Part shown: positions 3,619 through 53,105 of the stretch, piece after piece | Position numbering within the stretch: the stretch's first letter is position 1 | Layout: the number at the start of each line of letters is the position of its first letter | Source: Crambe crambe | Lineage: Eukaryota > Porifera > Demospongiae > Poecilosclerida > Crambeidae | DNA: 64,000 bases | Assembly: GCA_963924555.1 (NCBI GenBank) | Contig: OZ004582.1 | Span: 682,001 to 746,000, forward strand | Direction: 5' to 3' | Translations under genes and position numbers: made by a program | Notes under the pieces: generated by a model | Told to the model about the DNA's origin: nothing | Database searches by the model: none | What the model saw: the letters and a program-made list of their open reading frames with translations, nothing else

Positions 3619-6380
3619 ATGGCCAGCAAAGTAGTTCTAGTGCAGCTGGATCAGTTTTGCAGAAAGATCACCTTAGATCTAGCTAGTGAACAAAAAGCAA
3701 CGGAAAGAGAGTTACTCTTGAGCAATATTAGGGCTACTTTCAGTGATAGGATTAATCATGAAGACTCGATAACTCTACAGAGAAAAGATGAAGAGTTTGG
3801 GATGTTTATAGACTTTTTTGATGATGAAGTTCTTGATAAGAGTATTTTCAAGACTATAGTGGAGAAACCTGAGGTATGTACAGCTACTAGCTACATTTTT
3901 ATACAAATTTAATATTTTGAACACGAGGCTAGCCATGAAGTTTAATAAAAATATGTTTCAACAGGCAATTTCTAAATCACCCTCTACTATACCCAAACAT
4001 ATTGATCTCTCATCAGCTGATCAGGTTGGACCTATTGATGTCCACCCAGCAGATCAGGAATGTTCTTCTGGTATGAAGAATCAAATGAAGCTTTCTCTGA
4101 CCTCTAGTGGCTTTAAGCTCTTTAAGGTAGTATTTTTGCATGATTGTAGCTAGCAATGTGTATAAATTTTGTCATCAATGTTATTATAGGATACAAGTGA
4201 AGTGCCAGAGTCTTCAGAGATTAAAAGTGAGGTTTACAAGCAGAAAATAGCTGATCAGGCTGCTTTTTACAAGAAGAAAAGTGGCAAACGAGAGCTCAGT
4301 GACTTTGAGAAGCGTGTAAATGCTGCTGCAGCTGAACTCTGTTTGGATGATGTTAGCTTACTATCCAAACGTGGGGATCTCTTGGCTCTTGCAAGGAAGA
4401 AAGTTGCTGATGATGGATACATCTTTAAGAAAGGCCATTCCCGTTCAAAAGTGTATGGGTCTTCAGAGAGTGAAACTACACCCAAAAGACCAAAGTATGA
4501 TGATGAAATGAGAGAAGAGCGACTAAAAGTAATAGAGGAAGAACTAAGTGATATTTCGAGAATTCTGGCCTTTAAGGAAAAGCGTCTGTCTCAGGCAGAA
4601 AGTTCCAGGAATTATAAGCTCTGTGAACAATTGACAGAAGAAATGATGGATCTTAAGAGTAAGCGACGTACACTGAATGCAGAGAAAAAGTTGTTTGAGT
4701 TAAAGCGGAAGCGTGCTAAGAGAAGGAAGAAGAAAATGATGGATTCAGAGTCATCTGATAGTAGCATGTCGATGATGACACATTCAAGTTCTGCCTCTTC
4801 TACAAGTTCATTAGCACTGTCTGAAGGTATCCCAGTTCAACATACAAGTTCTTCCTCTTCGGAAAATTCATCCAAAAACACCCTTGATCAACCAGCTGTT
4901 CCTTTATTTCCTTCATGTATTGGTTCGCAGATAAACCCCATCGAGTGTGGAGACACTTCTGATTTCAACCAATTCTCTTCCTCTCCCACAAATTCATTAG
5001 CACTTCTGAAGGTACCCTGATTCAACCTGTGATCTCCCTCACAAATTGGTTCTCGAATCCCAGTACAGTCCCCTTTGGCTGAGTGGCCTTTTTAGCATCG
5101 CCTCCCCTCCAGGTATCTTCTGATATGGTGGGGAGGCTTGAAAACAATAACATTGCAATATACAAGGAGCAATCTAGACATAAATTATGTAATAGTAGTG
5201 AACAAAAACAATCTGAAAAAGTATACATCACTCTTTTTCGTGGTTTATCTTTACAAGCATATATAATGTGTCGTCATACGGACTGCCATAAGAATCATAT
5301 ACAACCTTGTAAAAGGTGCACACCTATGTTAAATGTTGCTACTCATGTGGTGGAGAAAGGATATTACTTGCTTTCAGATGCATTTCGGTCTGCTTTTCCA
5401 GATCAAGCATATAAAGCCTGTTTTGCAATTGAACGTTTCCTACAGATGCCACTAGCTTCAATACGTGTGGGTCCACCATGCAGTGGAAAGGCAGCATGGT
5501 TTTTAGTTGAGTTTGTTGAAAGAGTGGATTATGTCAATTTTTCACACTTTGCTGAAGCTATTTTCAGTTCATCCACCCCTCTCAAAGCTGTATTTGGCAA
5601 AGAACAAGTCAAAACATTGCTGGGAATGGCATGTTCCAATCGAGAAAGAGAGCTGTTGCAATATTCTGTTTTTAAGACATCTGGACTTTCAGCAACTGGA
5701 GCCAGAAAAGAATTTGGTTTTGAGAGGATGAAAGAACGAGCCAGCAAGGTAGAAGAGTGCATTGAAGCAGCACGCAGCATTCGAGAAGCCATTGATAAAC
5801 TCAGCTGTGTGGAAGAGAAAGCAATTCTTGTTGCATTGGGACTCCAAGAGATTGAGTCATCAGATTCAGATGAAGACATTGTCCCTAGTTCTGAAGTTGC
5901 TTCACTTGATGAAATGCCATTACCTTCCTTCTCTACAATGCTGAAAGTTGTAGAACAAGGAGGATTCAACTGGTTTGTGGTCAAAACTTTCATGGAACAA
6001 GAGGGTCATGAACACAATCATGAACATTTAAATCTGTTTTATTCATATGCTTTGAATTCACCATTGAGTTCAATGCAAAAGAAATTCTTACAACTTCATA
6101 TGCAGCTTTTGAAGTTTCTCAGCCTGATATCAATGAATCTAGAATTGCTGATTTGTTAAGTGGTGATATCGTCTCGGACTCAGAGAGTGATAATCCTGAG
6201 GATTATGTGGGTATTACCTCGCTTGCATCTGAAAATGTCAAGAAAATTGTTGCTCGAAAAAGAAAAGCTCTTAAACGAAAAGTGCAACGGCTAAAGAATA
6301 AACGTATAGCTGAAAGTACTGGAATTTGCAGAACCTTTGCATCAGAGCACTCTAAAGCCCTGTGTAAACAATTTACATAG
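3619..6380 (+). CDS. Four-exon gene: coiled-coil, Ser-rich protein of unknown function
   Basis: Four exons fit one phase-0 frame: 3619-3873, 3965-4126, 4190-5011 and 5113-6380. The introns are 91, 63 and 101 bp and each begins GT and ends AG. Exon 1 encodes a compact acidic domain of 85 residues. Exon 3 encodes a lysine/glutamate-rich coiled coil ('LAFKEKRLSQAESSRNYKLC' region), a basic patch ('KRKRAKRRKKK') and a Ser-rich linker. Exon 4 has Cys/His residues near its start ('CRHTDCHKNHIQPCKRC'), then a helical region. The tail (6160-6380) is strongly basic ('ARKRKALKRKVQRLKNKR'). One frameshift is needed between about 6040 and 6150, so this may be a recent pseudogene, an unrecognised intron or a sequence error. 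I know similar proteins only as uncharacterised invertebrate sequences. It could be a cellular orphan or a transposon accessory protein, because a Tc1-type transposase start follows within 70 bp on the same strand. Confidence 0.6.
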
Positions 6381-9984: not shown

Positions 9985-11679
9985 CTCAAGTTCTGCAGGA
10001 CGAGGGGGAGAAGGAAGAAGAGTGGAGAGAGGGGGGATAAGGGAACTGAAGGGAGCAGATAGTATTTGTGAGCAACGAAAACTAATCCATTCAACAAGTA
10101 AATAGTATGAACACGTATTACTTCAGTCAACTATATGGTGTCTTACCACTTTTTCGTCGCTCCAAATTTTTTGCCTGGTTTGAAGACTGTAGGGTAAAGG
10201 TAAAGGTAAACGATCTCTTTGGTAAAGTTAGTGCCAAACTCTAGGATACGTCCTTGGGTCATTAGTATCCTCTTCACCAGCTCTCCTTGAAATTCTTCAC
10301 CAGAGTATCTATCGAAATCCAGTTCTCAGCCCCATACAAACGGATTAGCATTACACAGGTTTGCAAGACTGATCTCGAAGACAAATGGGCTGACATTTCC
10401 TTGAGACACCCAAAGTAAAAAGAAAGCACACCTAGATTTCATGATATTCTCTTTGACAGACCTATGTACTTTTTTATATAATGGACTATATGAAAAAGCA
10501 TGGAGACATAAAATAGCATATCAAAACAACAAAATAAATTCATTCTCAGAGAGAACTTCTGAACCTTCTCCAAGGCTTTACAATGAAATAGATGCGTCTA
10601 TAGATCAATATGATTGATTGCAGAGAGGTCTCCTTTCCAATAGTAGTGACATTGGGGTAGAAGGAAAATTAGCATGCTTGCCAATCAATCATTCAAAGAG
10701 TCATCCAGAATATCTGAAGATAAAAATTCCATGATGAAAATGTGGCTATTTTCGAAAAAAAAAAACAACGGCAGCATCAGTAGTCCAAAACCTGAGCAGA
10801 GTAGCCTGAGCAGAGTCGTCCTCAATATCTGAGGATAAAAATTCCATGAAAACTTGAGCAGAGTCGTCCTGAGGATAATGAATCTGTTTGGGGCTAATCT
10901 GAGGAGGACGATGTGGCTATTTCAAAAATAACTGTAGGACTGTAGGGATTTGCCCCAAAACCCGAGCAGAATTATCCTCAATATCCAAGGATAGCTCTGT
11001 CAAAAGCCCCATTTTTTTCTGAGGACCATCATCCTCAGATAAATTCTCCAATAACTTGACCAAAAAGAATCTAAAATATTGCACCTATTATCCTCAGTAC
11101 CCGAGGAACCCGATAAAAAGTTAAAAAAGGAAACTTCCTTATATGGAAAAAAGTTTTATAACTCCTCCAAATTTCATCCAATCGGTTCGGCTCATATCTC
11201 AAAATGCTCCCGCACATCTGGAAACTCTGCACACTGTCCAAAGCTCTACCCTGAGGAAGCAGTAGAGAAGTGAAATTTGCTAATTATTGACAAAGACTTA
11301 AATTTTTATCCCATTTTTTTGTCATGTTTCGAATGGTCTATGATTAATATTAAAAAAGACAGAAATAGATCAAATATTAATTTTTTAGTGAGATAAGTAA
11401 GTGCTACTGATAAAGTTGGAATTGGATAGTCTCAAACCTCACAGCCGTTTCATTCCAGATATTTACGGATAATTAAATTTAACATACGTAATTACGGTAT
11501 TGTTATGTCCGCCCACGCATTTCACAATTAAATTCTTTTTTAATCCTGGTACTATAGCAACTGTCCTATAATGCACAAATGTTGCTATGATAGCTGTTTG
11601 TCACTTTATTGTAGTACTACGGGCTATATCCTGTGGGTAAAGAAGGCGTCACCAAAAGAATTCAATTTTCCTGTGCGGT
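9985..11679. other. Non-coding stretch with internally repeated motif
   Basis: Between about 10700 and 11050 a motif recurs several times with variation: CTGAGGATAAAAATTCCATG, ATGTGGCTATTT and AAAACC(T/C)GAGCAGA. This looks like a degenerate direct repeat of roughly 90-190 bp spacing. A 64-codon ORF at 11079-11273 has no recognisable domain. The rest is featureless. Confidence 0.45.
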
Positions 11680-13624
11680 ATGTTAGTAGTCAATGCATTG
11701 AGGAAGTCCTAACACAAGAGTATCCACTGCAGGATATGTGGGGAGTCTATTGTGAAACAAAGAGTCACATATAGTTGTTCAGCTCACTTTCAGGAACTCC
11801 ACAAGTCTTTTGAGCTCGATGTACGAGATGATGAATCCCACATTCACCCCCCAAAATTCTGCAACAGATGTTTTGTTATGATGAAGAGAGAGCATCCCAC
11901 AACCACTTTCACTTCCTTTAATTGGATGCCACATAGTGAAACACACTGCAGAGTAAGAAAAAAGAATAAAAAATAGTAATATTTATACATACATGTACAT
12001 TTTAGATCTGTGAACACTTTGCATCACATCACAGAGCAGGTTGCCCTCCCAAATCCCGAAAGAGAGGTCGACCTAGTAGCAATAGCAAAGAGACTACTCT
12101 CAGAGCTATAACAGATGCTGAGTCACCAACAATCTTGGCCTGCCATGGAACAAACTAAGAGTGATCAGGAGGCAAGAATATACGTATATCCTAGATCATC
12201 CATTCAAGGTGGCTGCATCAGTGGGGGATTTCACTTAGTAGTGAAGGCAAACAGAGGAAAGTTGCCAGGAAACTGCTAGGGGGAAATTTGGAAGCAGAAT
12301 CAGTGCCCCTAACTTTCCCATTGAAGAAAACTGGGGGGGAGGAGATCAGGGCAAAGGCTTGCTGCTATGTCCCTAATCTGGTTACGAAGGTGATCACACT
12401 CATTGAGGAAAATGACAAGTAGGCATAATAAATGCACTGCTTAGAAATTAGTAATGAAAAGCCTATTTTTCATACCAAGGGCTGGCAGGTTGGTTTGGAA
12501 TGAAGGCATTCCAAACACTGAATTGTGGGTAAAGCTAGGTGGTGACAAGGGAGGTTCATCTTTCAAGATGAACTTCCAGATAGTCAATATAGCTCACCCA
12601 AATTCCATCCAAAACACCTGCGTCTTCACAGCATTTGAAGCCCCAGATAGCAGATCAAACCATTGCAAAGATATCAGGAGCAAATTAGTCAACTCCAGTC
12701 CCATATTTGGAGGTACATGATTGTATTTTGTGTTAAGTCTAGTACCTCCAAAAGTCCCTGGAGGGAGTGAGGAAAGAGGCCAGAGTCAAGAGACTTGCTC
12801 TTCAAGAACGGTATAACCAAAACTTATTTATAAAAAAACTGTGTAGCTGCGCTCACCAATTCTCTGTAATAGGATGCTACAGTCAAAGATTTGGAAGGGA
12901 AACTCAGTTTAGAGGATGGGCCCTTCGTGAAAGGCCTGGATGCTGCCTTGAAATCGTTCAAAGTATGGTGGAACATTCATAGGCAACCATGTTCACAAGT
13001 GCCTAAAGGTAACTTACAAAGCAACAATGAAGTATAATGTAATCAAATGATTGTATCATAGTCTTCCAACACTGAAACCCTATGCGAGGCCATAGTAGTG
13101 TGTCCAACCCTTGTCAGTGATGCCACAGTCATCAGCAAACGATTCTTAGAGGCATTCAGCAAGTTTTCAGCCTGCCATAACATTACCTGACAACATTGTC
13201 ATTAATGTTGTTTACTTTCAAATTCTAGGAAAAAAACATAGAGGCCTTCATGGGGTTTTATCGCTCCACCTTTCCTCAAGCATCCGTCCTTCCAAAAATG
13301 CACCTCATGGAATCTCACATGGTACCTTGGCTAAGAAAATGGCACCTGGGATTCGGAATGATGGGTGAGCAGGGAGCAGAATCCATTCACGCCAGCTTCA
13401 ATTCCATTGAACGATCATTTGCCAACATGATACACAACAGGGTTGATAGACTGCTATCAGTGGTCAAGGAGCATCATCTCAGAATATTACCAGCAAACAT
13501 AACACTGCTCCCTCCTGTAAAAACTTGGATGACAGCTCACCTTGTCTCATTTTTCATGGTCTTTCCAGCATTGTCTTTCAAACCCTTCTCAAAATTGAAG
13601 CATCTTTGGTATATGGCATTCTAA
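11680..13624 (+). pseudogene. RAG1-like / N-RAG-TP-like transposon protein gene, copy 1
   Basis: Ordered plus-strand blocks identify this gene. (1) At 11728: 'CRICGES', then 'IHPPKFCNRCFVMM', then 'NWMPHSETHCR'. An intron at 11953-12005 (53 bp, GT-AG) leads to 'ICEHF'. This Cys/His ladder matches the N-terminal zinc-binding part of RAG1. (2) Near 12130: 'LGLPWNKLRVIRR'. (3) 12230-12417: 'SLSSEGKQRKVARKLLGGN' to 'VPNLVTKVITLIEEND'. (4) 12508-12650: 'ELWVKLGGDKGGSSFKMNF'. (5) Near 12970: 'YGGTFIGNHVHKCLK'. (6) 13230-13500: 'HLGFGMMGEQGAESIHASFN'. Blocks 2-6 fall in several frames, and there is a stop 5' of block 1 (11710). The RING/TRAF-type fingers seen in copy 2 are missing between blocks 1 and 2. 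I infer a RAG1/Transib-like core from the order of GGDKGG (Asp) and GEQGAES (Glu) blocks; that part is not proven. It is non-functional as it stands. Confidence 0.75.
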
Positions 13625-21228: not shown

Positions 21229-21974
21229 CTAGTACATGATTAAGTATACCGTTGGTGGAACAGTCCCACCTTGGGATAGTCCATCATTCTTGATGGTACA
21301 ACCCAATGGGATTCTCAATACTCTTGGACGTCTGTTGGCAATACTGGACATCTCTGGCAAACGAGATAACCCATCAGCATTATTGTGCTGCTCCGATGTC
21401 CTAAATTCCAAATCATATTGGTACCCCAAGAGCAGTATAGCCCAACGCTGTATCCTTGCAGCTGCTAAAGTAGGTAGACCCTTTTTAGGCCCTAATATGG
21501 ACATCAACGGCTTATGATCCGTCACTAGAGTAAACTTTCTCCCATATATATTTATGAAATTTCTTTATCCCAAATTACAAAGGCCAAACCCTCCTTTTCA
21601 ATTTGGGCATAATGCTCGTTGACAGGCTGCACTCCATGCCCACTGGGATCCCTTGCATAATAACCGATTCATGATCGAGGTAAAAACTTCCCATAATAGT
21701 TTGCGAGCCCCAAAAAGGCCCGCAACTCTTGAACGTTTGTGGGTGGGGGGGCCTCTGTGATAGCTCTTATTTTCTCGGGCATTGCATGTAGACCATTCTT
21801 ATCAATACGATAACCAAGGTAATCAACAGAGGGTTCTAAAAACTTGCATTTAGCCCGTTTCAACCTCAGCCCAAACTGTTTGATCCGTTCAAAAACCTGT
21901 CTTAAGTTTCTGAGATGTTCAACCTCATCTTTCCCAGTAATTAAGACATCATCAATATGGTAACATACTTGCAA
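21229..21974 (-). pseudogene. Gypsy RT thumb/connection and RNase H remnants
   Basis: 21669-21974 has 'CYHIDDVLITG' (His-Ile-Asp-Asp in place of the usual Tyr-x-Asp-Asp) and the connection region 'VDYLGYRIDKNGLHAMPEK' and 'LRAFLGLANYYGKFLP'. 21229-21525 has the end of RNase H, 'TDHKPLMSIL' to 'SEQHNNADGLSRLP'. Between them about 145 bp carries the rest of RNase H in broken frames. It cannot encode active enzyme. Confidence 0.8.
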
Positions 21975-22642
21975 GAATCAGGTTCCAACGTCACTTGCTG
22001 GTAGGCTTGGGAGAGATCCAGTTTGGTAAAAGCTTGTCCACCTGCCAAGGTAGCAAATAAATCCTCAGGTGTTGGCATTGGGAATTGGTCGACTTCGAGT
22101 GCTGGGTTTATTGTGACTTTATAGTCTCCACATATACGAATACCCCCATCTGACTTGGGGACTGGAACAATGGGAGCAGCCCAGTCACTGTACTTCACTT
22201 TCTCCAAAACGCCCATCTTCTCCAGTCTATCCAGGTCTTGTTCCTGGAGTGTGCCCAATTCTGGACGAAAAATTTCCTCATACTCTTGTACCAACTGATC
22301 TACTGGAGTCATCACCTTTCTGATGGCACCCCAATCGAGTTGAAATTTGCATAGCCAATTGCGCCCAAATAATGATGGGCCATCTCCAGCTACAACCACC
22401 AGGGGCAACTTGCGTGTCTTTGTACCATATGTCACCTGGACCATCTTTTGACCGAGAACTTTTAGACCTTGTCCCGTGTATGTTGTCAGCCTGATCGCTG
22501 ATTTGGCCAGCATGGGTGCCTTGAGAGTGCTCCTCCAAGTCTTCTCCGAGATGATGGAGACCGAGGCACCTGTGTCCAGCTCCATCATTAAGGGCTTGGC
22601 TTCCACTGTCAGCTCCAACAATATACCAGCCTTGGACGCCAC
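21941..22642 (-). pseudogene. Gypsy protease and N-terminal reverse transcriptase
   Basis: Aspartic protease motif 'MELDTGASVSII' and flap/second-strand block 'PLVVVAGDGPSLFGRNWL' come first. Then the RT fingers: 'EKVKYSDWAAPIVPVPKSDG', 'IRICGDYKVTINP' and 'FTKLDLSQAYQQV', which holds the first catalytic Asp. The reading breaks just after 'CKYVTI', where the palm with the primer grip should follow. The proteolytic motif is complete. Confidence 0.85.
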
Positions 22643-23438
22643 TGGTCTCGTCGGGTTCCCCTAACGTCTCAGGATCACCTTCAGGTTGTCCCACAAAATC
22701 AGTCCTCAGTCTGGGGTTTGGTGGACGCCCCTTGCTCTTACACATCTTGGCTATGTGGCCCAGTTTCTTACAGGATCTGCATCTCTGGATTCTGTAGTAG
22801 CAAGAGTCTGAGGGATGGTTTGTTTTCCCACAACGGTAGCAGGCGGAGCCTTGGGCAGCCGCAGCTATCCTTTGAGTTTGTACCGCATGAACAGTGGTGG
22901 CTTCTTCAATTATTTTCTGCAGTTCACCTGCTCGCAATTCTGCAGCTTCCATGCCATAGGCTGTCTCGTAGGCCGTCTTCAAGGTAAGCCCTTCACAGGT
23001 CAACAGTTTCCTATGTATCGCTTCCCGACGTAAACCACACACAAACCGATCTTGCAATGCTTCGTCTAGGCCTACTCCAAACCCGCATTTATCAGCCATT
23101 CTCCGTAATACGGCCATGTATGCCGCCACATCTTCACCTTCTTTCTGTCTCCGCTGGTGGAAATGGAACCTCTCTGCGATTATCACTGGCTTCGGCTTCA
23201 AATGTGCCTTCAACACTCCCACCAATTGTGCATAACTCTTGGTTGCTGGCTTCTCGGGTGCCACGAGATCACTCAGTAGAGCATAGGCTTTAGCTCCTAT
23301 AACTGTGATAAGCACTGATACCCTCTTTCCGTCCTCGATCCCGTTGGCTTCGAAATATTGTTCCAACCTTTCAGCGTACTGTTCCCAGTCGTCTTCTCCT
23401 AACTGGAAAGCCTCAACCTTGCCAATAACTCCTGCCAT
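22640..23438 (-). CDS. Gypsy gag with CCHC zinc knuckles
   Basis: The start at 23438 (just downstream of the PBS) gives a capsid-like region: 'FQLGEDDWEQYAERLEQYF', 'HFHQRRQKEGEDVAAYMAVL' and 'FVCGLRREAIHRKL'. Two Cys/His clusters follow, 'CYRCGKTNHPSDSC' and 'CRSCKKLGHIAKMC', the nucleocapsid knuckles that bind RNA. The open frame continues to 22278 in the gag frame but overlaps the protease frame after about 22640, so a frameshift links gag to pol. Gag itself appears intact. Confidence 0.85.
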
Positions 23439-24257
23439 AAGTACTATCCAGTAACTCGTCGCCAGTTGTTATATTCCAAATGTATATCTCAGACTCAAAC
23501 AGAATCACAGTTCAATCAATCAATAAAGTGATACCAAAATCATGAAGTAATGCGCATCTGCAAAGTGACACACAAATTAATATAAAATACATCACAGTAA
23601 GGATCGTCAGGACCTCAGCCACAACAACAAACGACCTAGTGAGTCAGTAAAGTGTGGGCAGGAAGGGCATATTGCCTCTCACTGCAAAACAAAAGTGAAT
23701 TCAGTCCGTAATCTTGGTCAGGCCATTTTAGGCAGCTCCTTAAGAGTTAGTGGAGAGATAGCTGGTAGCCCTGTGGAGGATGTGCTCCTCGACACGGGGG
23801 CCGAAATTTCGGTGCTTCTATTGGGCCAGAACTGCCCGGGGTTGCAGGTCCAGTGGAAGGTGGGACCTGTGAAGGAGGAGGAGCTTGAAGTACAGGTGTT
23901 GACCAGGGCTCAGAAGAAAAAGGAGGAGCAGGAGCTGGAAAAACTGGAGGAGTTAGACCACCAGTCTAAGGCTACACTCACCTCTCTGGGAGACATTACT
24001 GTGTCGGAGAAGGAAACACCTCCAAATTCTCAAACCCCACCTACCCACTCACCCAAACCACAAACAAAGGCCAAGTCCAGAAGGTGTAACAAATTTAGGA
24101 ACTTTACCCCTAACCAACAGTTGAGTCCACAGGAAACAGCAACAAGTGGAAGTGTGATCCCCTCACCGTCCACACCAGAGGTGGTTCAAGACAGCAACAA
24201 CCCCTTACCAGTCAGTCAAGAACCGAGTGCTGAAGGAACAAACCCCCTACCTGATGA

Positions 24258-24316
24258 TGTGCAGGACCTCAGCAAGGACCTGACCAGTGCAGGACCTCAG
24301 CAAGGACCTGACCAGT
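24258..24316 (+). repeat. Tandem duplication of ~28 bp at the protease/integrase junction
   Basis: GCAGGACCTCAGCAAGGACC plus TGACCAGT occurs twice in a row. The duplication lies at the point where RT-RNase H sequence would be expected, which fits a repaired deletion endpoint. Confidence 0.75.
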
Positions 24317-24479
24317 ACAAAGAACTTACTGGATATGCAACTCACAGATGAGTCCTTAAAGCATGTACGTAAAGATATGGAGAACAGAGACTCAGCCTTT
24401 GCCTTAACAGACAGAGGCATAGTGAAGACAGTTACTACTAGTCCTACCTCAGAAATTAAGAAGGGAGGCATTCAAGGCT

Positions 24480-25424
24480 GCCCATGGCACCATCATAGCA
24501 GGGCATTTAGGCCAAAAATATACATTGAAGAAACTTGCCCCTTTCTTTTATTGGCCAGGAATGGGCCAAGACGTTGCACAATGGTGTAAGGAGTGCCCTG
24601 TGCCAGAGGTTCTATGATGTTAAGGGTAACAAAGCTCCATTTCACCCTTTACCAGTTGTCAGAGCCCCTTGGGAGTGGGTGGCCCTAGATATAGTGGGAC
24701 CTTTGACCCGCACCAAGCAAGGCAATAAATATATCTTAACTTGTATCTGCATGTCCAGCTATCCCAGTAAAAAGCATTGATGCTGAAACCCTGGTCCAGC
24801 CTCTTTTCCAACTTTAGCCGTCATGGGATTCCTGCACGGATCCTAACGGACTGTGGCAGTAATTTCACCAGCAAGTTGTTTCAGGCCTTGTGCAAACAGC
24901 TAGGAATAAAGCACATTTTGACCACCCCTTACAGGCAGAATACCAATGGCTGCTTGGAGAGGTGGCATTCTACTCTGAAGCGCTGTTATATTCTTTTTGG
25001 CCTGAGAGAGGCACCAAATAGGGTGACAGGGTATGCCCCCTTCACCCTCCTGTACGGCAGGGAGGTGAGGGGGCCAGTTGCCATTCTTGCAGAAACACGG
25101 GGGAAAGAAACCCCCAAGTCAAAAACAATTCAGGACTTGTTGGAAGAGACCAAGAGAAGGCTGAGCATAGCTCAGGAGGCGGCAGCGGAGACAGATGAGC
25201 AGTCCAAGCAATACAACAAATTCAATTATGACAAGCAGGCACACGCACACCCACTAAAGATAGGAGATGAAGTGCTGGTAAGGATACCCACGGATCCTAA
25301 GGGCCTGCATGCAGTGTCAGACACCCCTACCAATGTTACCTATACATTGAATGCACCATATAAGGGTAAGAAAAATAGAACTTTCCACCGTAATAGCTTA
25401 AAGCTTACAATTACTACTAAATAG
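24480..25424 (+). pseudogene. Gypsy integrase
   Basis: The zinc-binding part is readable across frames ('IIAGHLGQKYTLKKL', 'FYWPGMGQDVAQWCKECP'). The core supplies 'WVALDIVGPLT' (first Asp), 'ARILTDCGSNFTSKLF' (second Asp) and 'YRQNTNGCLERWHSTLK' (Glu), so the DDE set is present. Then come 'APFTLLYGREVRGPVA' and a C-terminal domain with 'LKIGDEVLVRI'. Frame breaks at about 24600 and 24780 separate the zinc domain, first-Asp block and the rest, so no single protein is made. Confidence 0.8.
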
Positions 25425-38869: not shown

Positions 38870-39809
38870 GTTTTTGGATTGGCTACAACTACACCCACCA
38901 CAGATGCAAGGCAGCCAAGGCAAACATGCGGTTGGCAGGAGAATATCCTGAGGTGGTGAGGGATTATATCGCCAAGGAGTGCTTGTTGTGGCGTCTGCTA
39001 GGCCTATTTGATCCCCAAGCGTTGCCAGGGGTAATCTCTCTGCCCCAGAGGGATTCAGTGTTAACGATGGCATTGAACCAGGCCTATGTTCCTTATCATA
39101 TGTCAGTGTAGAAGAAATCCTGCGAATGGGCAGGGGCACCAGGTTGGCAAAAGTGGATATCAAGAGTGCTTATAGAATTGTACCAGTACATTCTGAAGAC
39201 CGGGCACTGCTGGGGATGCTTTGGGATGGAGCTCTCTATGTGGATTCAGTGTTGCCATTCGGCTCGGCCCCAAAAATATTTACAGCAATTGCCGATGCAT
39301 TGGAATGGAAAGTAAAGGAAGAAGGGGTGGGAGTAATCTTTCATTATCTAGATGACTTTCTGATTGTGGCTCCTCCAGATTCCAGTGTTTGCGAGGAGAA
39401 CTTGTATAAGCTGAAGGCTCTGTTTGACAAGCTGCATATCCCAATAGCCGAGGAGAAAGAAAAATTAAGAGACCTGAAGTTGCTAGTGGAAGAGTGGTTA
39501 GGCAAGAAACTTAGTTTGGTAAAAGATCTCCAGTCGCTAGTTGGGAAGTTGCAACATGCATCAAAGGTGGTGCACCCAGGCCGAACATTTTTAAGGAGGA
39601 TGTTTGATCTGTTGAAAGGAATCCCACAGAAACAACAATTTGTACGGCTTAACGTATCCTTTCGTTCAGATCTCATGTGGTGGCACTCATTTTTAGAGTC
39701 ATGGAATGGGGTATTGATGATGCGTAGTCAGGGAGCAGAGCCAGATCACCATTTGATTTCCGATGCCTCAGGGCAGTTTGGTTGTGGTGCTTTCTGGGAT
39801 TGTCAGTGA
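38870..39809 (+). pseudogene. DIRS reverse transcriptase and start of RNase H
   Basis: 'HRCKAAKANMRLAGEYPEVV' and 'LPGVISLPQRDSV' precede the RT palm. The 227-codon frame from 39126 has 'RLAKVDIKSAYRIVPVHSED' (first Asp), 'VDSVLPFGSAPKIF' and 'IFHYLDDFLIVAPP' (YLDD active site). 'LISDASGQFGCGAFWD' begins RNase H. Relatives read FGLRSAPKIF, so this copy has lost two codons in frame. A stop after 'AFWDCQ' splits RNase H, which continues as 'ELVPIVMACALWGCKWQGSS' and 'IQCDNEAVV' in the next frame. Confidence 0.85.
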
Positions 39810-48835: not shown

Positions 48836-49505
48836 TGTGACCGGGTACAGGAAAATCCGGCATAACGCGGCAGTAAAAATTTTTTGGATTTGTTGATATC
48901 CGTTATCTATGGCCCTTTGGCTCTCCATCGCGCAATTTTCAAAGCTTCAGGTCCTTTGATGCCCGAGGAACAGCTCTTAGAAAACTCCAGGTAGCGTCCA
49001 TTAGCGTTTTAATTTTTTGGAGAAAAAGCTGAATAAGCAACGTGAACATCATTTCCGGCCACGCCCGTGCACTATCAAATTGAAGTGGGTGGAGCCTCGA
49101 ACTAGAGTTAGAGAGACGCTAGTTTCTTGCCTCCTGACGCTAGTAAGTACCAACTAAAGCCTAGAAAAGAGTAACAAGGTACTAAAGATAGCGTAGAAAG
49201 CTTAGTTAGTTCATATTTCCAAGCGTATAAGCTGGAAAGCCTACCTTAGTTCTGGTGATTTTCAGCTGCTGGATTTTCCGTGCACGAAGGTTTCATGGCT
49301 GACTAGCTAACTTTAACGCTTCATTTGAAGCCTTTCTACTTTAGTCTAAGTTCCAAAACTTGGTCAGAAGTTTGTTCAAGGATCATAGTTTTGATCTATA
49401 CAGAAAAAAATTATTGTTGAATATATTGACCTGTGATATAAAATCACCTATTGTGACAATAATGTTCACGCGCGTTTAGGCGGATTTTCCTAAAACGGGA
49501 TGTGT
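48836..49505 (+). repeat. ~650-bp dispersed repeat, left copy
   Basis: Begins TGTGACCGGGTACAGGAAAA. It is the near-identical reverse complement of 59985-60641, including TGGCCCTTTGGCTCTC, CACGCCCGTGCACTATCAAA and GACAATAATGTTCACGCGCG. It interrupts the minus-strand transposase-like gene between two conserved blocks. Its inner end (TTTAGGCGGATTTTCCTAAA then ACGGGATGTG) carries a short insertion relative to the other copy, so the right border is approximate. No ORF. Confidence 0.85.
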
Positions 49506-50766
49506 CTTGGCTGGTTGTGGTGACTCCCCCCGAATGGTAAGTTCTTGGTCATCATGTAGTCTGCGCTGACAAAAGCACTGAAATCATGCTGAAGTTCCTG
49601 AAAGTCACATACGATGCTCATTGCTTAACAAACTGGAGACTTTTGTGTACTTTGCCCCAGTTTCAACTGAAAGTTTGCAATAATATTCAAGTGCATCTTG
49701 TGCATCATCCTTATGTTTCTGAAGGTCTTCCTGAAACTTGATCAATTTGATGTTCTATTCTTGTATCTCACCTGAATTCAAAGAAATAAGGTTAAGTGTT
49801 TGTGTGAGTGGGAGAGATTGTGTACATTGTATGTTGTGCAATAGCTACTTACTTTCTAATGCATGACCACTTTGGACCAGCCTGTTCACTCGTTGTCGGC
49901 ACCGACAGATCTCTTCTTCTAGCTCCTTGCAGGTATCACAGTAATCAGATAGTGATGGGCATATTCCAATGTACTGACGATGCTCTTTTAACCAATTATG
50001 AAATGTGCCAACAGATATTGTTTGAAGGGCATCCTCTGTCAGTGTACGATTGAACTCGTGCAAGATACTGTGATTACTCTTATATTCAAACTGAGGGTCT
50101 GTTTTGTCTGGAGTACGAATTTGAGTGAACTTGCAATCAAAATAATACGTTTTACCATAACTTCCTTCTTTGCGTCTATTGGGTGCAGAATTTTTGTCCA
50201 CAAAAGCAAGAAATTTCTCCAGTCATTTCCATGACGTCCAGGATGTTTTTTGCACTCTAGTGGGACATCATCTGGCAAGCCACAGTTTAGTCAACTGGTC
50301 ACAACCACGAGGAAGCACAACATCAGATATACGGTTATGCTTGTAAATGTCCTGTTTTTCGACATACTCTGTAGGGCCACTGTTTTCTGCCTGAATACTT
50401 TTTCTGAGTCTCGAGAGACGTTGGTTGCTGATGCCAAAAGCCAAACGAATGCAGTCACGATGATACAAGTAATTTCCTTTGGCATCGAACACAGACTTGA
50501 CAAGAAATCATTCTGCTTAACTATGTCAGGATAACTAGCACTTCGTCTGTGGAGGTCCCCGCCAGAGTGTACAAGGTTTTGAAAAACTTCTTTCAAGTTG
50601 AAGAGGCTGCTGCACTTGGAACAATCACTCTTTTCATTTTGACTGCCAGCAGAATTTGAATTCATCCCTTTGACAATGTCTTTCCGAACTCCATAGGGAT
50701 GCCTCGAGATAGTCCAGCTCTAAACAAACTAGCCGCCTTGCCTCTTCTCTTTGTCCTGGATGTCAT
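49506..50766 (-). other. N-terminal half of the split transposase-like gene
   Basis: This portion belongs to the gene described at 46213-50766. The clearest single frame is 49845-50201, with 'SVGTFHNWLKEHRQYIGICP' and paired Cys residues in 'DYCDTCKELEEEICRCR', a probable zinc-binding coiled segment. Opposite-strand ORFs here are shadows. Confidence 0.6.
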
Positions 50767-51224
50767 CGCGATTGCAGATTTGAAACGTGCATTTCAATTT
50801 TTCACAATTACATCATTCTAAATTCAACTCTACACGGGTGTTTCCTCGCGACACTATGTTAATTTAGAACTTGTATATTTTAATTACGGTATGTGTCTGG
50901 GCCCATAGCAACCTGACCTCTTGGTTGCCTAGGGTCTGTTGACCTCCCCAGGTCCAGTAACCTTGTAGAAAATACTTAAAAAGGTCAAACAGCACTAGAA
51001 CATGACCATCAATGCTTTGCGCATGCTAAATACACACGATAAGCAACTGAGCATTCGGTTTCCAAGCAACGGTAATTCGATTCATAAAGAAGGCGGTCGC
51101 TTGTGGTTCAATTGCTGTCTAAACAGGAAGTACTTCCAAGGTATTAACCGCATAAATCAATAGATGAATAGCTAAACATCTCAATTCTCTAAATATTATA
51201 CTATGGCCCATTTTTTTTATAGCA

Positions 51225-52324
51225 ATGGAACACCATCTAAGTAACCTAAAAAAATTGTGTAGAATCTGTGGGCTGAAATTGAAATCATATAGTCATGACA
51301 AAAAAAATGAGACATGTAAATCTCTAATGTCTACTTCCTTTGGGATGGATACCACTGATGAGGATGAAGATATATATCCCACATCTGTATGCCATAATTG
51401 CTACAGAACAATGCAGAAAATAAAAAAATCAGTCGAGACTAGGGTAGCATTCAACACTGACCTGAAAATTTCAACATGGGTACCACATCATGAATTTTGC
51501 AATATCTGCTATGGTCGTAATGGTGGTACTAAAAAGGTCAAGTCACAGGGAAGGCCCCGAAATGATGATATTACTCATTTAAGTAGAGAGATGATGAGGG
51601 CAGTCAACACCATAAACCCTCCTAAGTACACCGACCTAACATTGTATTCATCTCTGTTCCTTAAATCTTCATTCCTCGATGATCTACTCTGTTAACATTG
51701 CAAATGCATCCCTAATCAACCTCTGGAACTCATCCCATGCCGGCACCTGATTTGTATATCTTGCATTTCAAAGATTACAGAGAGCCACACCCTCACCTGT
51801 ACTAGATATATCAATACCCCACCCTTTAGTTTTGAACATGCTTGGCAGTCTCTTGCTCAAATGCCCCAGGGAGTGTGGTGAAGTGATCGAGCTGGGACAT
51901 CTGGAGAAACACTTGGCATCAAACTGCTCGCACACATATACTCCACCCCTATCCCAAATCACAGTAGAGCACCTACTCGATTCATCACTTAGCAGCGCAT
52001 TAGAGCAATACACCATGGCCATGTTGGCTGAGAAGTTTATACCCTCTAGTGGTTCTGTCACCTACAGGTCACCCAGTGGAAAGGTTTGCCCTAATAACAT
52101 TAATTCCATAAAGTAGTAATGATCTTACCTCTATAGCCACTGACATATGTCAGACTCCAGAATCGATCCATGCACGCTTCAACTCAATTCGGTGCAACTA
52201 CACCAACATGCCCAACAGGGTTCAAAGATTAGAGTGCATCCTAAAAGAGCATTTCAACCAAGTTTGTCCTGACAACCTTGTTAGGCAACCACCACCGAAG
52301 AAAAGGCCCAAGAAATCTTCATGA
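51225..52324 (+). pseudogene. RAG1-like / N-RAG-TP-like protein, copy 2, with RING and TRAF-type fingers
   Basis: After a TTTTTTTATAG acceptor, ATG at 51225 opens 156 codons: 'KLCRICGLKLKSY', 'IYPTSVCHNCYRTMQKIKKS', 'WVPHHEFCNICYG'. These match the RAG1 N-terminal zinc ladder in order and spacing. An in-frame TAA (51693) lies inside the next module, a RING pattern: Cys-x2-Cys, then 'PLELIPCRHLICISCI' and 'HTLTCTRY', where the last Cys of the final CxxC is Tyr. After a frameshift at about 51830: 'LLLKCPRECGEVIELGHLEK' and 'HLASNC', like the RAG1 finger after its RING. From 52151 the C-terminal block 'TPESIHARFNSIRCNYTNMP' and a basic tail 'PPPKKRPKKSS' end at 52324. The central core (GGDKGG etc., present in copy 1) is deleted. 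Copy 2 has no intron between WVPH and CNIC, unlike copy 1. Confidence 0.8.
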
Positions 52325-53105
52325 TAGACACTTTAAACTTGTATCCCTCCCATTATTGTTGTCCTGGAGAACTTCATAGACTTTGCTACTAACAGTTATA
52401 GCGTGCTAGGTTGAGTAGGATTCAAGCGTGTGCTGCCAGCGCTTGGTTTGACCTTTTTCTTTCCTTCTTTTTCCTTTAATCAGCTCGATCTTCCTTCTAA
52501 GCACATGAGTTACACACGTGGCCACAGGACTGCTGACTAGGCTATAATAACTGCTAAACCACAGTATATTATAGCGCTAGACACCGTTGCTATGGTGTTA
52601 CTATGCAATTTGAAAATCTTTCATTTACACGTCAGTGTCCACGTAATTATATGTAGCGAAACACCCGTGTCTAATTATCCAAAAATTGTAAAATGTGTAC
52701 AAGGTTCCGTTTTTATTTGAACCATCCACATATATATTATCATATCCATGTTCTAGATATAGAATAGTAGCACATATATCTTCTTGGGATGCTGGAGACT
52801 AAATAATGTAGACAGGATCCCAACAAGGGAAATCCGTTAAACATATTTTTTGATGTGTCACAAAGCCACCCCCACCCCACACACACAATGTGCCAGGAGG
52901 CATGGCACTACACTGGATAGAGTCCAAGCAGTGAGGGCACTAGACTAGGTCAATCAAAATCTGATCAGTTAGATCCCTAGCTTGCTCTAATATTCATAAC
53001 ACACTCGCCTGGAGATATTGCTGTGTGTAAAGAGAGTGCCTACCTTCTTAATTCAATAACCACACGAGATTTCGTAGATGCCCTCTACCTTATAGTTGAA
53101 TAATG
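52325..53105. other. No gene recognised
   Basis: Flank of the RAG1-like remnant. No inverted termini could be matched to a left end upstream of 51225. Confidence 0.4.

Follow-up and report, generated by a model that had tools for sequence, protein, structure and literature searches.

The 64,000-nucleotide stretch of DNA analyzed here (the window) contains, around positions 51225-52324, what is very probably a dead, internally deleted cut-and-paste DNA transposon of the Chapaev type (CMC), from a probable sponge, whose transposase joined a RAG1-type zinc module to a DDE core. It is best classed as a Chapaev because its target site duplications are 4 bp long and because its core does not match RAG1. 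Comparisons drew on related copies in the rest of the genome (143 Mb, 119 contigs); coordinates are collected in Table 1.

Both element ends could be read in four of the six copies inspected, and all four are flanked by a 4-bp duplication: TCTA for the window copy, ACCC for L051, CCTC for L009, and CACA for L010 (L052 has no 5′ end and L011 no readable 3′ end). The termini, CACGGGTG/CACCCGTG, are of the form 5′-CAC ... GTG-3′, with some variation: the 3′ end of L010 is CACAGGTG inverted, and the 5′ end of L011 is GACGGGTG. Chapaev elements are described (PMC4079192) as having 3- to 4-bp duplications, invariable 5′-CAC/GTG-3′ termini, and C(2)C, LH, and H(4)H motifs, whereas transposition by Transib and RAG1/2 yields 5-bp duplications (PMC8355894). 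The ends and duplications found here agree with the former, and the duplications disagree with the latter.

Read from the ATG at 51225, the window copy presents, in order, CRICG, IYPTSVCHNC, WVPHHEFCNIC, an in-frame TAA, the RING region, and KCPRECG...HLEKH, the last in a different frame from the upstream ladder. An earlier note on this DNA had described these Cys/His motifs in this order, and they do lie within 51225-51930. The copy is dead: it has an in-frame stop at 51693, a gap in the RING, and a loss of 2269 bases of core. Its closest relative is L009 (98-99% identity over three aligned pieces), against which 17 gapped bases take away the final part of the RING and put what follows out of frame. 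The same note had also called the copy dead, and the TAA, the frameshift, and the core deletion (at 52157|52158) that it listed are all present; the Cys-to-Tyr change that it read in the RING is no substitution, since this and the frameshift both result from the 17-base gap.

The zinc module carries the likeness to RAG1. The window open reading frame (ORF) at 51225-51692 (156 amino acids) matched the Pfam model RAG1_imp_bd (PF12560) with 59.5 bits (cutoff, 23.3) and an E value of 5.3e-16. We aligned 13 ORF stretches drawn from nine loci and ran the resulting profile against all PDB sequences, the kind of search that the earlier note had proposed for the translated blocks; full-length mouse RAG1 was the top match (E = 4e-30; 108 bits), with no unrelated family ahead of it, in one colinear stretch over residues 101-408 that spans the ladder, the RING, and the following finger. 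The same profile matched the RAG1 zinc-region chain 21wb (E = 3.5e-15) and the RAG1 dimerization domain 1rmd (E = 1.3e-14), while the best non-RAG chains, LNX2 (8.6e-12) and TRAF6 (4.6e-10), aligned through the RING and finger only, with at most 47.9 bits. With the single L051 protein as the query, 21wb again came first, yet with an E value of only 9e-4, and RING2 came next. Two reversed sequences (window ORF and L051 exon 1) gave no RAG1 match. Taken stretch by stretch at E ≤ 0.1, RAG1_imp_bd was found in 10 of 13 and the RING model PF00097 in 5 of 13. Together, these comparisons support the proposal, already made in the note, that the zinc series of the window element is truly RAG1-like and homologous to the N-terminal third of RAG1. 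We also observed a subthreshold similarity of the ladder (window 51225-51692 and L009:6143-6409) to the zf-AD family (best E = 6e-5; 23.6 and 19.8 bits against a cutoff of 28); RAG1-type ladders and zf-AD fingers may be related.

Better-preserved elements, which the note had proposed to seek in the rest of the genome, do exist there and are ~4.2 kb long. One of them, L051 (contig C6), yields a predicted gene of ten exons with no stop, GT-AG introns of 49-83 bp, and a product of 959 amino acids; exon 1 comprises the entire zinc module and exons 2-10 comprise the core. The two are parted by a phase-0 intron, and at its position (residue 302/303) the translated matches of L009 are also interrupted. 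A DNA search with the 1100 bases of 51225-52324 gave at least nine matches in at least five places. RAG1_imp_bd has 18 matches in the genome, all over the cutoff, and DUF1280, a model for part of the catalytic core, has 23; judged by coordinates, 11 of the 18 have a same-strand DUF1280 match within 2 kb. The window copy is among the other seven because its core is deleted. Several diverged subfamilies are present, which we grouped by eye: subgroup A includes the window copy at 51 kb, L009, L014, and L051, and subgroup B includes L023, L025, and L049. The last pair of RING ligands is CxC in subgroup A and CxxC in subgroup B (L025, L023, and L049). Copies on contigs C21 and C12 are 99% identical across nearly all of their 4.2 kb (99.2% over 4140 bp for C12), and in translated alignment both have a frame break near residue 26; such identity between near-full-length copies suggests that this Chapaev-type family moved recently in the genome.

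For the core, we aligned the spliced L051 core with four cores assembled from translated matches in broken copies. Invariant in all five are D185, D260, C279/C282, LH349, and H579/H584 (core columns); GEQG(A/I)ES can be seen by eye in L051, L009, L026/L041, and L033, and L049 ends before that stretch. In L051, the motifs read GGDKG, SGDYE, CLWC, GLH, HMLEDH, and GEQGAES. This order (D, D, CxxC, LH, HxxxxH, E) matches the C(2)C, LH, and H(4)H set with DDE residues expected of Chapaev. Among Pfam families, DUF1280 was found in all five cores, along with one chance-like match to another family; no RAG1 family matched any of the five.

By inspection, D, D, CxxC, HxxxxH, E is also the motif order of RAG1, if the roles that we assume for the RAG1 residues are right. 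Combined with the very strong RAG1 match of the zinc head, this could mean that the element is a true RAG1-like (RAGL/Transib) transposon, that is, a sponge RAG1L, a reading that we consider improbable. A core profile run against PDB retrieved eight sequences at E ≤ 10 (best, 0.036), none of them RAG1, RAG1L, Transib, or any transposase. That library contains RAG1 and RAG1L (6b40), as well as 6pqn, which we take to be the Transib transposase. Alignment of the core with mouse RAG1 by hhalign gave 0.1% probability, which is not significant, although it does place the Glu stretch of L051 opposite the part of RAG1 in which E962 lies; with a larger core alignment, 10 of 150 shuffled RAG1 sequences reached the score and the top-scoring alignment was no longer the same. 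Because these comparisons are not significant, only motif order is claimed as common to the core and RAG1. Searches of the genome with PF12940 (RAG1 core), PF03089 (RAG2), and the mouse RAG1 core gave no match, but no positive control rang in them, so absence is not established. Scans with the core alignment of prokaryotic and viral contig collections gave 88 and 59 pattern matches, respectively, none of them confirmed; because of what these collections hold, that result says little about animals. The core is thus, by these comparisons, without detectable sequence similarity to RAG1, and homology to a RAGL/RAG1 core was not found; all four readable copies, moreover, have 4-bp rather than 5-bp duplications.

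That the element is a host gene containing zf-AD and RING domains, or what remains of such a gene, is far less credible than a Chapaev transposon. The weak zf-AD similarity described above would suit this account, as would the resemblance of the RING and finger to TRAF6 and LNX; against it stand the inverted repeats at the ends of the element, the target duplications, the spread of near-identical copies over several contigs, and the DDE-motif core within the same gene model. Chance likeness of the Cys/His series to RAG1, through convergence or composition, is scarcely tenable: Cys-rich sequence can match spuriously, and hmmsearch attached a bias value of 28.1 bits to the full-length RAG1 match, but the reported score is 108 bits, more than twice that of the best non-RAG chain, the match is colinear throughout, and the two reversed sequences gave no RAG1 match.

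Several points weigh against a RAG1-headed Chapaev. Its placement rests on hallmarks and published descriptions, so that the element is set beside other Chapaevs by description rather than by a tree, and the splice sites of L051 were predicted from reading frame and from homology between subfamilies. Among the 13 stretches, none was matched by a Pfam model for the finger 3′ of the RING and, as noted, only 5 were matched by the RING model. An AlphaFold model of exon 1 has a mean predicted local distance difference test score (pLDDT) of 56.4, with low confidence in the ladder part and about 68-88 per ten-residue block in the RING and finger. With this model, Foldseek placed TRAF6 first and RAG1 1rmd second (E = 2.5e-6; template modeling score by target length, 0.71), with TRAF6 and LNX structures around it; the RING-finger fold is common to TRAF6 and LNX, and therefore the fold alone is not specific to RAG1. 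In five of six pairs, those that set different subfamilies against each other, the proportion of synonymous differences in the zinc head was 0.78-0.79 and that of nonsynonymous differences 0.37-0.42 (the sixth, window versus L009, is too similar to judge); this points, though only qualitatively because synonymous sites are saturated, to selection that maintained the head. Finally, ligase activity is uncertain because the RING of subgroup A ends in CxC.

Architecture, ends, duplications, near-identical copies, and zinc-head constraint between subfamilies can be read from the DNA itself; the working of the element that we propose goes beyond them. It would encode one spliced transposase of about 959 amino acids, with exon 1 supplying the Chapa ladder, the RING, and a TRAF/RAG1-type finger, and exons 2-10 supplying a DDE core whose zinc site is CxxC...HxxxxH. 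At least two chains of the transposase would pair the CACGGGTG ends, and the core would cut them and join them into a target staggered by 4 bp. The central domain of RAG1 holds two zinc ions, binds double-stranded DNA, and takes part in nuclear localization, while its RING region has dimerization and E3 ligase activity (PMC3124419). By analogy with this homologous region, the zinc head may aid DNA binding, nuclear entry, dimerization, and possibly ubiquitin ligation; the sponge head thus probably helps the transposase to reach and hold DNA and to pair its subunits.

Table 1. Features of the window element, of a second copy in the window, and of related copies elsewhere in the genome
Feature	Position	Strand	Remarks
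Whole element, internally deleted DNA transposon	50833-52669	+	Larger than 51225..52324
5′ target site duplication TCTA	50829..50832	.	Read at element edge
5′ terminal inverted repeat CACGGGTGTTTC	50833..50844	+	Same in L009 and L010; L051 has CACGGGTGTTT in common
Chapa/RAG1_imp_bd zinc ladder (CRICG, CHNC, PH, CNIC) and start of RING region	51225..51692	+	Open until in-frame TAA at 51693-51695
RING finger region, approximate limits	51690..51800	+	Interrupted by in-frame stop and 17 gapped bases versus L009
Zinc finger 3′ of RING, KCPRECG...HLEKH...C, C2HC by inspection, approximate limits	51850..51930	+	Motif and profile alignment
Exon 1, final part	51808..52083	+	Equals L051 residues 208-302; stops at first GT donor of L051 model
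Internal deletion junction	52157..52158	+	2269 bases of L009 missing
Last-exon remnant of transposase core	52158..52324	+	Begins within GEQGAES stretch; C-terminal end of core
3′ terminal inverted repeat (GAAACACCCGTG on + strand)	52658..52669	-	Inverse of 5′ end
3′ target site duplication TCTA	52670..52673	.	Read at element edge
Second dead copy in window, subgroup B, more divergent	11671-13522	+	RAG1_imp_bd match 11671-11967, internal stop; no termini located
Second window copy, DUF1280 match	12472-12660	+	Pfam
Second window copy, HxxxxH/GEQGAES end	about 13229-13522	+	Translated comparison
L009	C3:3.09 Mb		DNA match to 51225..52324
L010	C14:6.25 Mb		DNA match to 51225..52324
L011	C3:1.13 Mb		DNA match to 51225..52324
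L012, fragment	C3:1.47 Mb		DNA match to 51225..52324

The host is an animal, since Wnt matches are present (14 in the genome). Its mitochondrial contig (C119; 19,532 bp) carries a COX1 with seven in-frame TGA codons; ARAGORN found 22 tRNA genes there on one strand, including two for Arg and three with anticodon CAT, and an 87-amino-acid ORF (L054:8211-8474) is ATP9-like by eye. Together, atp9 in the mitochondrial genome, a tRNA set that is almost complete, and the reading of TGA as Trp are characteristic of sponges; cnidarian mitochondrial DNA keeps one or two tRNAs only. From this contig, the host is probably a sponge, as the earlier note had supposed.

Other remnants lie in the window. Just upstream of the element, at 49500-50700 on the minus strand, is a degenerate coding-like stretch that looks by eye like another transposase remnant. 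Gypsy-like retrotransposon remnants occupy 21941-25424; the minus strand there has gag sequence with a zinc knuckle, along with an aspartyl protease, and the plus strand has an integrase core. A fragment of reverse transcriptase (RVT_1) lies at 39012-39806 (plus strand). An ORF at 4190-5017 (plus strand) matches NAB conserved region 2 (E = 3e-9) and possibly belongs to a host NAB corepressor gene; the ORF that follows it, at 5083-6156, matched nothing in Pfam at E ≤ 0.001.

The N-terminal third of RAG1 has two published origins: capture by a Transib of N-RAG-TP, which consists entirely of that head (reviewed in PMC8355894), or an ancient fusion of Chapa, RING, and core with later losses (PMC4411706). 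In the latter paper, Kapitonov and Koonin (2015) describe two Chapaev subgroups in which Chapa precedes a RING, as in RAG1, and regard the fusion as ancient; the text examined names lancelet and sea anemone as Chapaev hosts, does not mention sponges, and leaves the host species of the two subgroups unstated. According to Martin et al. (2020), most protostome RAG1L proteins contain the three zinc-finger motifs of RAG1, and the ZDD occurs in molluscs. These reports do not support the novelty that the earlier note had seen in a full zinc set outside deuterostomes. A head and a core in one gene model from a probable sponge fit the ancient-fusion view (PMC4411706), but are compatible with vertical inheritance as well as with horizontal transfer, of which Chapaev elements offer documented cases (PMC4079192). 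It is conceivable, though we think it rather doubtful, that the ancestor shared by sponges and the other animals already had the complete RAG1 zinc head fused to a DDE transposase whose motifs follow the RAG1 order, and that RAG1 kept or regained its head from the Chapaev side rather than through later capture of N-RAG-TP. The probable sponge, which has several subfamilies and near-identical copies of the element as well as a gene model free of interruptions, offers an outgroup to cnidarians and bilaterians for a phylogeny of the zinc head; the near-identical copies make the origin of the RAG1 N terminus testable near the animal root, and the element provides a natural protein for asking what the zinc head does in transposition.

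Among known systems, vertebrate RAG1 and invertebrate RAG1L share with the sponge element the colinear ladder, RING, and finger over RAG1 residues 101-408 and differ from it in the core, which is not detectably similar, and in the length of the duplications. The finger after the RING ends in His in RAG1 but in Cys in the sponge element, whose subgroup A has the divergent RING ending described above. Transib ends begin with CAC, and Transib likewise has a DDE core with CxxC...HxxxxH. It differs in having no zinc head and in making 5-bp duplications (PMC8355894; Martin et al., 2020), and its core gave no sequence match to that of the sponge element. N-RAG-TP of Aplysia is, like the sponge element, mobile and encodes a protein resembling the RAG1 N terminus (PMC8355894, PMC2996935, and PMC13337447), whereas the sponge element, compared with it by description, joins that head to a full DDE-motif core in one gene model. 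We found no report of a sponge Chapaev or of a RAG1-type head in sponges in the open-access literature, insofar as its text was accessible, although one may have been published; in the accessible text of PMC4298943, "sponge" refers to a transposon name, not to a host. The closest likeness is to Chapaev elements with Chapa and RING, which have CAC/GTG ends, 3- to 4-bp duplications, and the C(2)C, LH, and H(4)H motifs (PMC4079192); their Chapa-type head, followed by a RING, sits on a core that is no more than a distant relative of Transib (PMC4411706). In the sponge element, the Chapa-RING pair was recognized through its RAG1 matches (PF12560 and the RAG1 profile, with PF00097 in 5 of 13 stretches); compared by description, the sponge element adds a probable sponge host, a finger 3′ of the RING, and an exon structure. 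It thus fits as a further case of the known Chapa-RING kind of Chapaev, and would extend the host range of that kind beyond the reports found in the open-access literature.
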